Source: a virus
Strand: one strand, 5' to 3'
Virus record (IMG/VR): IMGVR_UViG_3300036846_000340
Coordinates: 1-20,193 of that record
Length of the DNA stretch: 20,193 nucleotides
In this document: in pieces, positions 1,254 through 20,193 of the stretch
How positions within the stretch are numbered: the stretch's first letter is position 1
Layout of the letters: each line of letters begins with the position of its first letter
Notes under the pieces: generated by a model
What the model was told of the DNA's origin: nothing
What the model saw: only the letters and a program-made list of their open reading frames with translations
Databases searched by the model: none
Program-made: the position numbers and the translations under genes

Positions 1254-1871
1254 CTACAAGAAGGACTGAAGCAGTTCAGTCTTTCGACTGACATTTACTT
1301 CACCCTTACTTGATGGGCCGGCAGGAAGAACTGCGAAACCATAGTCCCGCAGGAAGGTTCTCATAAAGGCGATACGGTCTTCCACTCGCTGGCCCTTACC
1401 ATGGCGAGAGGACCACAGCTCAAGGTTCTCGGGCCGGTTATCTGCTCTGTCGCCGTTCTTGTGATGCACAGTCTCGTCGGCAAAGAGCTGACGGCCTAGC
1501 TGACGCTCCACCACCGCTCGATGCTCGGGGATGTACCCCCCATCGGCGCGCAGCAGCTTGTAGCCGTACTTGTCGATGATGAAAGCCTTCTCCCGGCGCG
1601 TCACATTCTCGCACGCCTCGGAGCAGTACTTGCGGGTCCGGTTGAAGGCCCCGCTTGGATAGCGGCTACCCTCGAACTCTTTGCCACACCCGTGACAGAC
1701 AAGCACTGGGGCAACACCCTTGTTCCGACGGTAACATTCAAGTGTGCAATAGCGCTGCGGCGTCTTGGACGCACTACCCCACGCAGCCGACACCAGGATC
1801 GTGAAGTCGGTCCCGCAGCCTACGCATGACAGCGTAACCTTCGGAGCCGATCTCGGGACGATCCTCCTCAT
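1254..1871 (-). CDS. HNH endonuclease 1, free-standing homing type, with two Cys4 zinc knuckles
   Basis: This 205-aa protein is a predicted DNA-nicking or double-strand-cutting homing endonuclease. Two N-terminal Cys4 zinc-binding modules are visible: C16/C19/C42/C46 and C59/C62/C83/C87. They are followed by an HNH domain at about residues 113-160, with EHR (H117), the core HHKNGDRADNRPENLEL (H136, H137, N145, N149) and a late histidine (H157). An in-frame extension to 1991 exists, but ATG at 1871 overlaps the stop of the preceding scaffold-like gene in an ATGA tetranucleotide, which fits coupled translation and avoids a 124-nt overlap. It separates the scaffold-like gene from the capsid gene, a frequent landing place for such selfish genes in phages. 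Function is well supported by motif; the target site is unknown. Confidence 0.88.
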   Translation of the reverse strand: MRRIVPRSAPKVTLSCVGCGTDFTILVSAAWGSASKTPQRYCTLECYRRNKGVAPVLVCHGCGKEFEGSRYPSGAFNRTRKYCSEACENVTRREKAFIIDKYGYKLLRADGGYIPEHRAVVERQLGRQLFADETVHHKNGDRADNRPENLELWSSRHGKGQRVEDRIAFMRTFLRDYGFAVLPAGPSSKGEVNVSRKTELLQSFL

Positions 1872-14515: not shown

Positions 14516-14806
14516 TCAGGTACAGCCAACTATACCAATCTTAATCAGGAGGGGATACCGGCGATGCGACGGCTGTGTGTGTACACCGCGCGTGTGCACT
14601 GCTGACTTTGCCTGTGCTTCTTCCAGCTTGCTGATACTGCGATTGCTGCTGGTTTTGTGCAGCGCATCCCCAGCATTTCGATGTGCTGAGGCGCGAGGCC
14701 CCATCCGTCGGCGCAAGCACCCAGACCCCGAAGGGAAGCCGCCGGCCTCATTCAGTACGGTGGCTGGACCAGATGCAAGTAACGTCAAGATGGCTAGACC
14801 TCCCAT
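14516..14806 (-). CDS. Doubtful ORF (96 aa) in a poorly explained stretch
   Basis: An open frame starts at ATG 14806 (MGGLAILTLLASG, a short hydrophobic N-terminus) and ends at 14516 inside the promoter-like region. It has no Shine-Dalgarno, and a competing 68-aa frame (14545-14751) covers the same bases. Neither product resembles a known family. I see no tRNA here. The stretch 14,494-14,851 may be untranslated leader, a decayed gene or a real small gene. Confidence 0.25.
   Translation of the reverse strand: MGGLAILTLLASGPATVLNEAGGFPSGSGCLRRRMGPRASAHRNAGDALHKTSSNRSISKLEEAQAKSAVHTRGVHTQPSHRRYPLLIKIGIVGCT
14519..14537 (-). promoter_or_regulatory. Extended -10 promoter with overlapping inverted repeat
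   Basis: On the minus strand TGG-TATAGT (14537-14529) matches an extended -10 element, without a convincing -35. It lies inside an imperfect inverted repeat GGTATAG-TTGG-CTGTACC (14536-14519), which could bind a regulator. Transcription would start near 14522, about 29 nt before the basic-protein gene. No experimental support. Confidence 0.4.
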
Positions 14807-14817
14807 TGTTGGCTCGA

Positions 14818-14839
14818 CGGCCAGCGAAGCGGCCTCAAG
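14818..14839 (-). repeat. Post-stop intergenic hairpin repeat, copy 3
   Basis: Shares 22 identical bases with 15775-15796; the core reads AGCGAAGCGGCCTCAAG on the plus strand. It starts 12 nt after the stop of the 61-aa gene. On the leftward transcript it can fold as GGCC-GC-TTC-GC-GGCC, with an outer GCTTG/CGAGC stem. No T-tract follows, so it is not a typical terminator. Confidence 0.6.
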
Positions 14840-15061: not shown

Positions 15062-15078
15062 CTTGAGGCCGCTTCGCT
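15062..15078 (+). repeat. Post-stop intergenic repeat, copy 2 (inverted, 17 nt)
   Basis: CTTGAGGCCGCTTCGCT here is the reverse complement of the core of the other two copies. It lies within 26 nt of the stop of the 211-aa gene (TGA 15090-15088), and CGGCCGGGT separates it from that stop. Together with 14818-14839 it brackets the 61-aa gene as a terminal inverted repeat. Confidence 0.6.
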
Positions 15079-15751: not shown

Positions 15752-15796
15752 GCTGGCCGGAGATGGTTGGTCACCGGCCAGCGAAGCGGCCTCAAG
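15752..15796 (-). repeat. Intercistronic hairpin plus post-stop repeat, copy 1
   Basis: GCTGGCCGG (15752-15760) and CCGGCCAGC (15774-15782) form a perfect 9-bp stem with a 13-nt loop. The right arm runs into the 22-nt intergenic repeat (15775-15796). The element fills the 80-nt gap between the 109-aa and 211-aa genes, starting 7 nt after the upstream stop. No T-run follows on the minus strand. Confidence 0.65.
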
Positions 15797-16349: not shown

Positions 16350-16808
16350 CTAGCGCGTGGTGTCAGTCACTGGCCCTAGCCTAGGGAGGGGCACGTCCCT
16401 GGGCCTCCCCCCAGGGAGCCTACACCGTCCCCCCAGACCATAGGCCAGCACCTTCCTGCGCATGGTCACAGCGTAGCTGTGGCAGACCCTATAGCGATCC
16501 TGTAGCTGGCGTATCGTCATGCGCTCTAGGTCACGTATCGACAGGGAGCCGTCACCTATGTCAGCACGCAGTCCAGCGATACCAGCGGCACCATGTGACG
16601 GTCCCTTGGGGATGGCACCATGTGGGTTACCGATGGCCGGGTTACCAACAGGTTTATGGTAGGTCATAAGACGGGTTGCAGACCCTACAACTACAGCTGC
16701 CACAGCCTCGACAATCTCGCAGACCATGCCTGTCGCCGCTTCCGGCGGCTGTGGGACCGCCTTGGGTCTATCCTTAGCTACCGCACTAGCCAATTGGCCC
16801 TCTCGCAT
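16350..16808 (-). CDS. Possible HTH regulatory protein (152 aa)
   Basis: The frame starts at ATG 16808 (MREGQLASAVAKDRPKAVPQ) with GAGG about 10 nt upstream. The C-terminal half contains SIRDLERMTIRQLQDRYRV and CHSYAVTMRRKVLAYG, which reads as a helix-turn-helix with a basic recognition helix. It is isolated from the gene upstream by an intrinsic terminator and has its own upstream region with one perfect and one degenerate copy of the AACGC-N7-GCGTT dyad, so it could be an autoregulated phage regulator. The N-terminal half is not recognised, and some chance remains that this is not a gene. Confidence 0.5.
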   Translation of the reverse strand: MREGQLASAVAKDRPKAVPQPPEAATGMVCEIVEAVAAVVVGSATRLMTYHKPVGNPAIGNPHGAIPKGPSHGAAGIAGLRADIGDGSLSIRDLERMTIRQLQDRYRVCHSYAVTMRRKVLAYGLGGRCRLPGGRPRDVPLPRLGPVTDTTR

Positions 16809-16873: not shown

Positions 16874-16890
16874 AACGCCACTGTAGCGTT
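16874..16890. promoter_or_regulatory. Operator-like dyad, site A
   Basis: AACGCCACTGTAGCGTT is a 5-bp dyad with a 7-nt centre. It matches site C (17735) at 15 of 17 bases. It lies between the intrinsic terminator and the start of the possible HTH gene. Confidence 0.6.
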
Positions 16891-16951: not shown

Positions 16952-17158
16952 TTACGCCTTGGCGGGAACCTTCCCATAGTTCTCGTCTGTGGTGATGACG
17001 TTGAGATTGTACTTCACCATGCCGAACGGGGTGGAAATCTCCACGAACGGCCCAGTCTTCGCGACGATGCGGCTCTTGCCGCTCTGGCTCGCCGTCGGCT
17101 TGACGTTCAGCGCAACGACCAAGGTCAGCGTGTTGCCTTCGCATTTCGGAGTAATCAT
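16952..17158 (-). CDS. Conserved small phage protein (68 aa, SxSGK..VA type)
   Basis: The product begins MITPKCEGNTLTLVVALNVK and contains TASQSGKSRIVAKTGPFVEI. This matches a short phage family (M-I-x-x-x-x-x-G-x-T-L-x-L...SxSGKxxxVA) of unknown function that I have seen in many tailed phages. It is a single-gene leftward unit with its own terminator and an AACGC-N7-GCGTT dyad 91 nt upstream. The ribosome-binding site is weak. Confidence 0.72.
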   Translation of the reverse strand: MITPKCEGNTLTLVVALNVKPTASQSGKSRIVAKTGPFVEISTPFGMVKYNLNVITTDENYGKVPAKA

Positions 17159-17248
17159 GGCTACTTGTGCTTTCGGTTATGGCCTCGGGGCGGAATGCCC
17201 TTTGGCGAAATCAGTCAACCACGGCCTGCCAAAAATCAGCCCCAAATA

Positions 17249-17265
17249 AACGCTCCCGTTGCGTT
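17249..17265. promoter_or_regulatory. Operator-like dyad, site B
   Basis: AACGCTCCCGTTGCGTT matches site C at 15 of 17 bases and shares the half-sites AACGC and GCGTT with 7-nt spacing. It lies upstream of the leftward 68-aa gene. Confidence 0.6.
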
Positions 17266-17302
17266 CCATTCGCCAAATCGGCCAGCAACTGCAAGCACTT
17301 GG

Positions 17303-17330
17303 ACAATCGACAGGTGCGACAATCTGTCAA
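17303..17330 (-). promoter_or_regulatory. Possible leftward promoter
   Basis: On the minus strand a perfect -35 TTGACA (17330-17325) is followed, 16 nt on, by a weak -10 GATTGT (17308-17303). A GACAATC repeat flanks it. It could drive the 68-aa gene, whose operator-like dyad lies downstream. Weak -10, so low confidence. Confidence 0.25.
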
Positions 17331-17384
17331 CTAGCCAGGTTTTCGCCTCGCATGTGGGCGCGTCCGCCCCATCCCATGGGTGCC

Positions 17385-17677
17385 GGTGGGTCGCGCATGT
17401 TGCCCCCGTGCTCGCGCCCGTTGGGCGCTCGCACCCACTGATCTGTGGGGGTGGGTCGCGCATGTTGCCCCCGTACGGTTGGGCATGTGGGTGTTACGGG
17501 TGTGACGGTGTAACGGCCCTCTCCCCCACAGGTGGGTCGCGCATGTTGCCCCTCACCCGGTACTACCTCCGTGAGGTAGTACCGGGTCAGATCCCGGCTG
17601 TCAAGCCCTCCCAGGCACAGGTGGGTCCCGCTCGCTTCGCTCGCGGTCGGGACAGGTGGGTCGCGCATGTTGCCCCC
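17385..17677 (+). repeat. Four direct repeats of a 22-23-bp word (iteron-like array)
   Basis: Copies lie at 17385-17407, 17450-17472, 17531-17552 and 17655-17677, all on the plus strand. The common core is GGGTCGCGCATGTTGCCCC, identical in all four. Start-to-start distances are 65, 81 and 124 nt. Spacers carry hairpins at 17414-17428 (GCGCCC-GTT-GGGCGC), 17555-17587 and 17625-17653 (GTCCCG...CGGGAC). A fifth copy lies in the early gene at 19136. Spacers differ in length and sequence. Confidence 0.85.
17555..17587. repeat. Perfect 15-bp inverted repeat, 3-nt loop
   Basis: ACCCGGTACTACCTC (17555-17569) and GAGGTAGTACCGGGT (17573-17587) are exact reverse complements around CGT. No T-tract on either strand, so not a normal terminator. 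It lies 3 nt beyond the third direct repeat. Confidence 0.9.
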
Positions 17678-17734
17678 AGTCCGCAACATCCCCGGCTCCC
17701 CTCGGCAAATGTTGGCTGGCGAGCCGGCTAACGG

Positions 17735-17751
17735 AACGCCACCGTTGCGTT
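17735..17751. promoter_or_regulatory. Operator-like dyad, site C
   Basis: AACGCCACCGTTGCGTT differs from site A and from site B at two positions each. It lies 134 nt upstream of the first rightward early gene, so it may control that operon. Confidence 0.6.
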
Positions 17752-17885
17752 TACTTCGTCGAAAATCCCAACAACTTCAACGACTTAGCCTGCGACAACA
17801 TGTCACATCGCCAAAACTTCCGACCAAGCGCCCAATATTGGCGTTCGCCTACCAAGTAACAACCTACCACACAGGAAGTCAGGCC

Positions 17886-18116
17886 ATGAAGATCGCTACA
17901 CAGGTACTCCAAGACCTACAGGACAATGCTTCAGAGGACATCGACGCGCTCTGCAACCTGTACGCAGACACCAGGGGCTGCGACATGATGACCGTCCAAC
18001 AGCGCGCCCGCATCGTCATGCGTTGCGACGATGCCAAGGCCGGCGACCGCTATGCCACCTGGACCTTCTTCGTCCGCACCGGCATCCCCGCCTCCCGCAT
18101 CCGTACGAGGGCCTGA
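17886..18116 (+). CDS. Early hypothetical protein (76 aa)
   Basis: First gene of the rightward operon. The product is acidic early (DLQDNASEDIDALCNLYADT) and ends with an Arg-rich part (GIPASRIRTRA). Start ATG 17886 has AGGAA about 10 nt upstream. It ends 2 nt before the next ATG. No domain recognised. Confidence 0.7.
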   Translation: MKIATQVLQDLQDNASEDIDALCNLYADTRGCDMMTVQQRARIVMRCDDAKAGDRYATWTFFVRTGIPASRIRTRA

Positions 18117-18734: not shown

Positions 18735-18986
18735 ATGGCTAAGTACGAGTTCGGCAAGCGGTGGGATGACAAGCTCCCCCGCTACGACATCAAGTGGCTC
18801 ATGGGCCGCGTCCACGTCGGCACCCCCGACAGCGAGGTCGAAGCCGACATCCGCCGCCGCTGCGCTGCTTGGCCGCCACGCATGATCGGCCAGGCTGTCG
18901 CCTATGCCCTGGAGTGCCACAAGGCCAATCGGGGCCTCTACAACTACGTCATGGGCGGCACCCACCGCCGCCTCGAACTGGGATGA
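18735..18986 (+). CDS. Early hypothetical protein (83 aa)
   Basis: The product begins MAKYEFGKRWDDKLPRYDIK and has PDSEVEADIRRRCAAWP and QAVAYALECHKANRGLYNYV, resembling short phage proteins of the type ...YALxxHxxNxxLYxxVMxG. ATG 18735 has ACAGGAGGG 4 nt upstream, one of the strongest sites in the window; an upstream extension is not needed. Its TGA overlaps the next ATG (ATGA). Confidence 0.7.
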   Translation: MAKYEFGKRWDDKLPRYDIKWLMGRVHVGTPDSEVEADIRRRCAAWPPRMIGQAVAYALECHKANRGLYNYVMGGTHRRLELG

Positions 18987-19171
18987 GCCTAGACCACATA
19001 CCGGGCTTGGAGCGGATACCACACGTATCCGCGCCTCCCCGCCCGTGGCTGCGCTGGCTCGCGCTGGCGCTCGCCATGCTCGCCTGTATGGGCGTGGGCT
19101 TCGCCCTCGGGCGCTACCTCGACGACATCCTCGGCTGGGTCGCGCATGTTGCCCCCGGATGGCACCAATGA
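18983..19171 (+). CDS. Small single-pass membrane protein (62 aa)
   Basis: The product has one clear hydrophobic helix, WLRWLALALAMLACMGVGFA (about 22-41), between a Pro-rich N-terminus and a short C-terminus. It starts by ATGA overlap and ends by another ATGA. Its last residues, GWVAHVAPGWHQ, are encoded by a fifth copy of the control-region repeat. Orientation and role are unknown; an early membrane or spanin/holin-like role is only a guess. Confidence 0.6.
   Translation: MSLDHIPGLERIPHVSAPPRPWLRWLALALAMLACMGVGFALGRYLDDILGWVAHVAPGWHQ
19136..19156 (+). repeat. Fifth copy of control-region repeat, inside a gene
   Basis: TGGGTCGCGCATGTTGCCCC followed by C (21 nt) is identical to the core of the four copies at 17385-17677. 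It encodes WVAHVAP near the end of the membrane protein. Confidence 0.85.
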
Positions 19172-19368: not shown

Positions 19369-19845
19369 ATGACCAAGTGCTATGTGTTCGACCTCGACAG
19401 CACCCTCGCCGACCCGACTCACCGGCTCTGGTACATCCAGAAGCCCGACCCCGACTGGCGCGGCTTCTTCGCCGCTTGTGGTGGTGACGAACCCATCGTC
19501 CCTATCGTGAGCCTCTACAAGCACCTGTGGAACGGGGCCGAGGAGGGCCAGTACGAGGATCGCATCCGGTACTACGCTATGATCATCGTCAGCGGTCGCT
19601 CAGACGAGTGCCTCCCGCAGACCGAGGTTTGGCTACAGGACGTGGCTAACCTCGCCTACCACGCGCTCTACATGCGCAAGGCGGGCGATCACCGGCCCGA
19701 CCACTTGGTCAAGTCCGAACTCTTGGACCAGATGCTGGCCGACGGCTGGGAGCCGATCCTCTTCATCGACGACCGGCAACAAGTAGTCGATATGTGGCGC
19801 TCCCGAGGCTACACCTGCCTCCAGTGCGCCCCCGGCAGCTTCTAA
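19369..19845 (+). CDS. HAD-family polynucleotide 3'-phosphatase-like enzyme
   Basis: The 158-aa product shows all four HAD motifs: DLDST (D8, D10), SGR (75-77), K115 in VKSELLDQM, and DDR (134-136), with MWRSRGYTC following. The YMRKAGDHRPDHLVK element and overall length fit the phosphatase domain of T4-type polynucleotide kinase, which removes 3'-phosphates at DNA or RNA ends. No kinase domain is attached. ATG 19369 has GAGGAG 7 nt upstream. It is the last gene of the rightward operon. Confidence 0.85.
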   Translation: MTKCYVFDLDSTLADPTHRLWYIQKPDPDWRGFFAACGGDEPIVPIVSLYKHLWNGAEEGQYEDRIRYYAMIIVSGRSDECLPQTEVWLQDVANLAYHALYMRKAGDHRPDHLVKSELLDQMLADGWEPILFIDDRQQVVDMWRSRGYTCLQCAPGSF

Positions 19846-19892
19846 CCCAACAGTCCTAGGGAAGTTTTTGGGTGCGTCGACAAGCCATGATC

Positions 19893-20193
19893 CTAGCCCC
19901 ATTGCTCGCGCGACGCTGCCGTCATCCAGGATGTCCACTCCCGCCGTGGCGGGTTGTAAGACTGCCCGTCACGCCGCTTGCGGGCTACGAGTACACGCGG
20001 CCGCCGCTTCTTCGCCGCCCGCGCCTGCGTTCTGCGGCGGTTGGCTTGTTCCACTTCAAGCTCGTTGAGCGTCTGCGCCCCGTAGGATCGCGCCTTAAGG
20101 ACTTCCCGTATGCGCTTGACGACTATCTCGGCGGACAAGTTGATCCACTCACCCCTTATCAAGTGTGCGCGGAAGTGGTCGAGGATCGCTCGT
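19893..20193 (-). CDS. Unknown leftward protein, C-terminal part (cut by window edge)
   Basis: The frame is open from the right edge to TAG 19893 and gives 99 residues. A helical part (LIRGEWINLSAEIVVKRIRE) is followed by an Arg/Lys-rich linker (RRRTQARAAKKRRPR) and a tail NPPRREWTSWMTAA. A TTG at 20162 is a possible start, but the frame continues past it without a stop, so the gene probably extends beyond the window. It converges on the early operon. Function not recognised. Confidence 0.55.
   Translation of the reverse strand, partial: RAILDHFRAHLIRGEWINLSAEIVVKRIREVLKARSYGAQTLNELEVEQANRRRTQARAAKKRRPRVLVARKRRDGQSYNPPRREWTSWMTAASREQWG

Follow-up and report, generated by a model that had tools for sequence, protein, structure and literature searches.

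The stretch of DNA analysed (the window) is a whole IMG/VR contig of 20,193 bp, hereafter W. Its positions 17159-17885 form a non-coding stretch of about 0.73 kb, where the first-pass annotation had counted 0.3 kb. Two gene blocks part here, as that annotation had proposed, and this is the sole such point in the complete related genome. Leftward, the gene of a conserved 68-aa protein (16952-17158, minus strand) is followed by structural genes; rightward, the gene of a conserved 76-aa protein (17886-18116, plus strand) opens the early block. In the related genome G2, replication genes lie in one outgoing block and structural genes in the other. The early block of W also encodes a protein with a polynucleotide-kinase-type phosphatase domain (19369-19845, plus strand), and an HNH endonuclease gene (1254-1871, minus strand) adjoins the major head protein gene.

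The non-coding stretch contains four mismatch-free 22-bp copies of a repeat named R1, GGTGGGTCGCGCATGTTGCCCC, all on the plus strand (17385-17406, 17450-17471, 17531-17552 and 17655-17676). The four copies had been reported beforehand as sharing a 19-bp core; they are present, their identity extends over 22 bp, and a fifth copy had been overlooked. This fifth copy, with 1 mismatch (19134-19155, plus strand), lies within a 62-aa CDS (18983-19171) and ends 12 bp before the next ATG (19168). In 100 dinucleotide shuffles, no match to R1 was found at 3 mismatches or fewer (chance expectation 0). In the W genome there are thus five R1 sites in the same orientation, all within the window; elsewhere, a single two-mismatch match to a 15-bp core was found, in contig N9. 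Spacers between the intergenic copies measure 43, 59 and 102 bp and carry hairpins, so that a CRISPR array, with its near-constant spacer length, was rejected. The palindromes announced for these spacers were found at three places. The first spacer has a hairpin with a 6-bp stem, GCGCCC-GTT-GGGCGC (17414-17428), and a similar spacer exists in G2. Between copies 3 and 4 lies a hairpin with a perfect 15-bp stem and a 3-nt loop (17555-17587), which shows compensating changes in relatives. It is followed by a 35-bp insertion or duplication (17617-17651), found in W only and absent from relatives, in which ACAGGTGGGTC is duplicated around a short CGCTCGCTTCGCTCGCGG hairpin.

A search of IMG/VR for the exact 19-bp R1 core retrieved only three other contigs, all from the same metagenome (3300036846): G1 (22.4 kb), G2 (57.0 kb) and G3 (27.2 kb). 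The ends of G2 overlap by 97 bp, so that its map closes into a full circle of 56,896 bp. A second repeat, the 29-bp R2, led to three further contigs of the group, including N9 (39.3 kb), each end of which overlaps W by exactly 127 bp; together they give a circular map of 59,282 bp. G3 too ends with these 127 bp, and the other end of N9 matches W only, among the contigs compared. A cassette at this place (window 19876-20193; L008:1-318) is 98% identical between W and G3, far closer than the remaining genome, and the shared sequence probably broke the assemblies there. R2, ATACTGCGATTGCTGCTGGTTTTGTGCAG, recurs without change in the genomes of the group, with as many as three copies in each and in either orientation with respect to genes (window 14634-14662, +; L016:9531, +; L017:282, -; L017:7951, -; and other contigs). 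The third dispersed repeat is R3, CTTGAGGCCGCTTCGCT(GGCCG), which is short, has internal symmetry and also occurs in both orientations (window 14818-14839, 15062-15078 and 15775-15796; L016:9490; L016:11087; L017:6694).

Among more distant relatives, R1 is absent from L029 (a contig that stops before the homologous place), L033, L034, L036 and L039, and L033 and L034 have no comparable non-coding array of direct repeats. Blastn of the array region against INPHARED gave no match, and a wider 16-mer scan returned, outside the group, single matches only. By exact patterns in IMG/VR and blastn in INPHARED, R1 arrays turned up in a single group of uncultured phages of about 57-59 kb. A repeat of host origin was rejected, as the 19-mer has 7 single matches in 257 Gb of GTDB genomes, which we estimate to be about chance with GC bias.

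The first-pass annotation had asked for repeats at the same place in relatives. R1 is found in G1, G2 and G3 at corresponding positions and in the corresponding orientation: in all four genomes it occupies the same divergent region and the same small gene, and always faces the early block. The number of intergenic copies varies (4 in W, 2 in G1, 4 in G2, 3 in G3), and the spacers differ in sequence and in length. These genomes differ by 10-25%; across them, a 17-bp core of R1 has a single substitution in total, 17 of the 18 copies being unaltered, a conservation measured on four closely related array-bearing genomes from one metagenome. The array is real and, to judge from this sequence comparison, apparently under strong selection. 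The copy inside the small gene covers nine codons that are identical in the four genomes, compared with 13 of 34 upstream codons, and offers a clear example, open to testing, of constraint at the nucleotide level within a coding sequence. In G3 this copy consists of 20 bp repeated exactly in tandem, which alters the end of the protein, and it marks a junction from which a 0.7-kb cassette is absent.

The unit formed by R1 copy 3 on the left, the 17555-17587 hairpin and R1 copy 4 on the right is the part of the array common to all four genomes, with start-to-start distances between the two repeats of 88-93 bp, and of 124 bp in W because of the 35-bp insertion. In each genome the hairpin pairs perfectly, over 15 or 16 positions, G2 having one additional pair, and each of its four variable pair positions is changed on both sides. 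Pairs were counted on a MAFFT alignment and in a hand-set register, as MAFFT misplaced the extra base pair of G2. The constraint is thus seen to act on the structure of the hairpin rather than on its sequence, which suggests a role at the single-strand level, as RNA or as ssDNA. As a whole, the array folds into more stable structures than shuffled sequences on either strand (z of -4.0 and -3.5); R1 alone folds no better than shuffled sequence. Start-to-start spacings of R1 copies (65/81/124 in W; 65/95/93, 34/88 and 88 in the others) vary modulo 10.5 and are unphased. In G2, the spacer that separates the second from the third R1 copy (L007:8190-8244, plus strand) resembles a 3'-truncated tRNA with, by eye, a GTG anticodon; the Rfam tRNA model gives it 19.6 bits, below threshold, and ARAGORN finds no tRNA.

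The array is flanked by palindromes. Operator-like palindromic sites are found on its left (AACGCTCCCGTTGCGTT, 17249-17265), on its right (AACGCCACCGTTGCGTT, 17735-17751) and upstream of the gene of a 152-aa protein (AACGCCACTGTAGCGTT, 16874-16890). With at most one mismatch, the palindrome AACGCNNCNGNNGCGTT has three sites in W, G1 and G3 and two in G2, and it is confined to the surroundings of the array in all four. Dyads TGCGACANNNTGTCRCA and CGCCCAATATTGGCG also lie close to the array; the latter (17829-17843) is conserved and precedes the first early gene. A further dyad on the right flank, TGCGACAACATGTCACA (17791-17807), has a weak left counterpart at 17315-17329. The 152-aa protein (16350-16808, minus strand) is a candidate regulator: helices predicted at residues 76-123, with moderate confidence, are compatible with a helix-turn-helix, the remainder of the model being of low confidence. 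This protein has no Pfam match, and a fold search with its mostly low-confidence model gave no significant match. Its presumed recognition helix varies among relatives and R1 does not, so that this neighbour may not be the protein that binds R1. No match was found in a consensus promoter scan of the region, and a sigma-54 promoter was rejected, its GG and GC elements being, by eye, 11 rather than 10 nt apart. As for a single-subunit phage RNA polymerase, PF00940 had no match in a search whose control also matched nowhere, and the large proteins had no such PHROG match.

The best explanation, to which we give slightly less than even weight, is that positions 17.16-17.89 kb make up a single bidirectional control region, in which the R1 set would act as direction-dependent transcription-control sites. 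R1 would be an asymmetric site recognised by its sequence, probably by a DNA-binding protein that the phage encodes. Its copies, one of them within the early block, would face early, rightward transcription and work, much like stoperators, as operators or roadblocks whose effect depends on direction. Together with the conserved hairpin and the flanking palindromic operators, they would set the timing or the extent of early transcription. We observe the conserved sequence, position and orientation, the structure-preserving changes of the hairpin and the palindromes around the array; we infer the binding of a protein to R1, the identity of that protein and transcription as the process controlled. 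The control-element reading is supported by the five same-orientation sites with none elsewhere in the W genome bar one weak core match, by the core unchanged in nearly all copies while spacers differ, by the codons kept identical at the in-gene copy compared with those upstream, and by the conserved position between two outgoing gene blocks. The restriction of the AACGCNNCNGNNGCGTT palindromes to the region and the HTH-like protein encoded next door, with a palindrome upstream, add to this support. Against it count the promoter scan that returned no match, the structural constraint on the hairpin, the variation of the recognition helix next to a constant R1, and the presence of only about five R1 sites, versus more than 20 sites in phage L5. 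Nearly unchanged amid a diverged genome, R1 would give a clear handle on how early and structural gene expression are separated in these phages.

The array might instead be a replication origin, R1 being iterons bound by an initiator, with the hairpin aiding strand opening or priming and forks running both ways along the gene blocks. We consider this unlikely. Its position at the divergence point would suit an origin, and genomes of the group have genes for a polymerase, a primase-like protein and a helicase of their own. A precedent for such a use of non-coding repeats is the PLE satellite, where they serve as iterons (PMC7145576). A change in GC skew, proposed earlier as a check, does occur exactly at the array: the detrended cumulative skew of the 59.3-kb map has its extreme within the array, at 17516, and G2 shows a step at the corresponding place. 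Where leading strands are G-rich, an origin should produce a skew minimum. The extreme observed is a maximum and coincides with the switch in gene direction, with which it is confounded, and the outgoing strands near the array are C-rich, opposite to the usual leading strand. Moreover, the intergenic copy number varies from 4 down to the 2 of G1, the spacing is not helically phased, one R1 copy lies 1.5 kb off inside a gene, and an A+T-rich segment is missing, as A+T content reaches only 55-57% in the richest 60 bp. No initiator of the RepA or O type was recognised among the proteins scanned: those neighbouring the array have no family match, and the DUF3987 primase-like protein is encoded far away.

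A better origin candidate exists in the early module: in one of its non-coding gaps, N9, N10, N11 and G2 share a giant inverted repeat of about 300 nt (L047:8480-8765 in N9; L049:8345-8640; L051:2480-2770; reverse complement of L016:13885-14210). This nearly perfect hairpin has an A+T-rich inner stem and encloses an island of 75-78% A+T. Its folding energy is predicted at -130 to -141 kcal/mol, compared with -63 to -80 in mononucleotide shuffles, and pair-keeping changes on both sides occur at 32 of 105 predicted pairs in three of the four sequences. On these features it would be a stronger origin candidate than the array, though a structured RNA could also explain it. Of the two possibilities named in the first-pass annotation, a replication origin or a multi-site control element, the second is the better supported; "iteron-like" fits the appearance of R1, and the helical phasing and A+T-rich segment of an iteron origin are missing.

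An RNA-level leader carries a similarly low probability. The array would then be transcribed in the early direction, with R1 and the hairpins forming an attenuator, an antitermination (nut- or put-like) element or a processing element in the RNA. The single orientation of every R1 copy relative to early transcription agrees with this, as do the compensating changes that keep the hairpin and the better folding of the array than of shuffles on either strand. R1 itself, however, does not fold better than shuffled sequence. No intrinsic terminator, in which a T run (the U-tract of the RNA) follows a GC-rich hairpin, was found at the array hairpin. No Rfam family reached the gathering threshold over the array, by which a known RNA family was rejected. 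Finally, the two flanks clearly resemble each other, as duplicated promoters would, in W only. We can also imagine, with still less conviction, that a new bipartite kind of phage control element, in need of both a fixed 20-bp sequence and an extruded or transcribed hairpin, has the repeat-hairpin-repeat as its smallest unit; with R2, R3 and the giant hairpin it would make up one genome-wide cis-acting system.

It is very unlikely that R1 is a recombination linker at a module boundary, a short invariant block of homology where cassettes come and go. Copy number and spacers do vary as recombination between copies would make them, the in-gene duplication of G3 marks the junction that lacks the 0.7-kb cassette, and the same genomes contain further invariant dispersed repeats, R2 and R3. 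Recombination alone nevertheless leaves a constant core unexplained between genomes so far diverged, and the position of R1 is kept at both places in all four. Lastly, it is hardly credible that the array is a pac or cos site by which the small terminase recognises DNA for packaging: repeats near terminase genes are typical of such sites and the leftward block has its large terminase gene about 3.5 kb away, but the array does not adjoin terminase genes, relatives with a 40% identical terminase have no comparable repeats, and genome ends are invisible in circular assemblies.

Returning to the control-element reading, R1 can be compared with several known systems. The PLE satellite has an iteron origin whose repeats, like R1, lie in a single non-coding region of a phage-related element; its iterons are bound by a RepA_N initiator, are semi-palindromic and converge on a poly-A tract (PMC7145576), and neither such an initiator nor such an arrangement is seen here. 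The start-associated sequences (SAS/ESAS) of Cluster K mycobacteriophages share with R1 a non-palindromic repeat bordered by GGG...CCC, mostly in one orientation; some have inverted repeats of variable spacer, and their function is unknown (PMC3203893). SAS contain AGGAG and lie 3-7 bp before start codons (PMC3203893), whereas R1 has no AGGAG and four of its five copies are far from starts, only the in-gene copy being near one, at 12 bp. Stoperators, described in Cluster A mycobacteriophages L5 and TipsytheTRex, are, like R1, short asymmetric repeated sites in promoter regions or intergenic positions, with an orientation tied to transcription (PMC9283540); R1 keeps the same strand in the four genomes. 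Stoperators are 13 bp long with more than 20 sites (PMC9283540), compared with 22 bp and about five sites for R1, four of them in one region rather than in short intergenic gaps genome-wide. Unlike stoperators, the R1 set has one site within a coding sequence and a hairpin, kept in all four genomes, between its sites. No repressor was identified and the proteins scanned show no sign of lysogeny, another difference from stoperator phages. We do not claim R1 as a member of the stoperator family, because the genome-wide distribution is lacking and no repressor was found. The SPBRE of SPbeta is 15 bp long and spread over about ten promoters (PMC10516654), and no MrpR-like protein was identified here. 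Like R1, it is a repeated motif specific to the phage that was first noticed from the sequence only, and it later proved to be the site of a master repressor, MrpR (PMC10516654). Of the systems compared, stoperators and the MrpR-bound SPBRE come nearest to R1 as working analogues.
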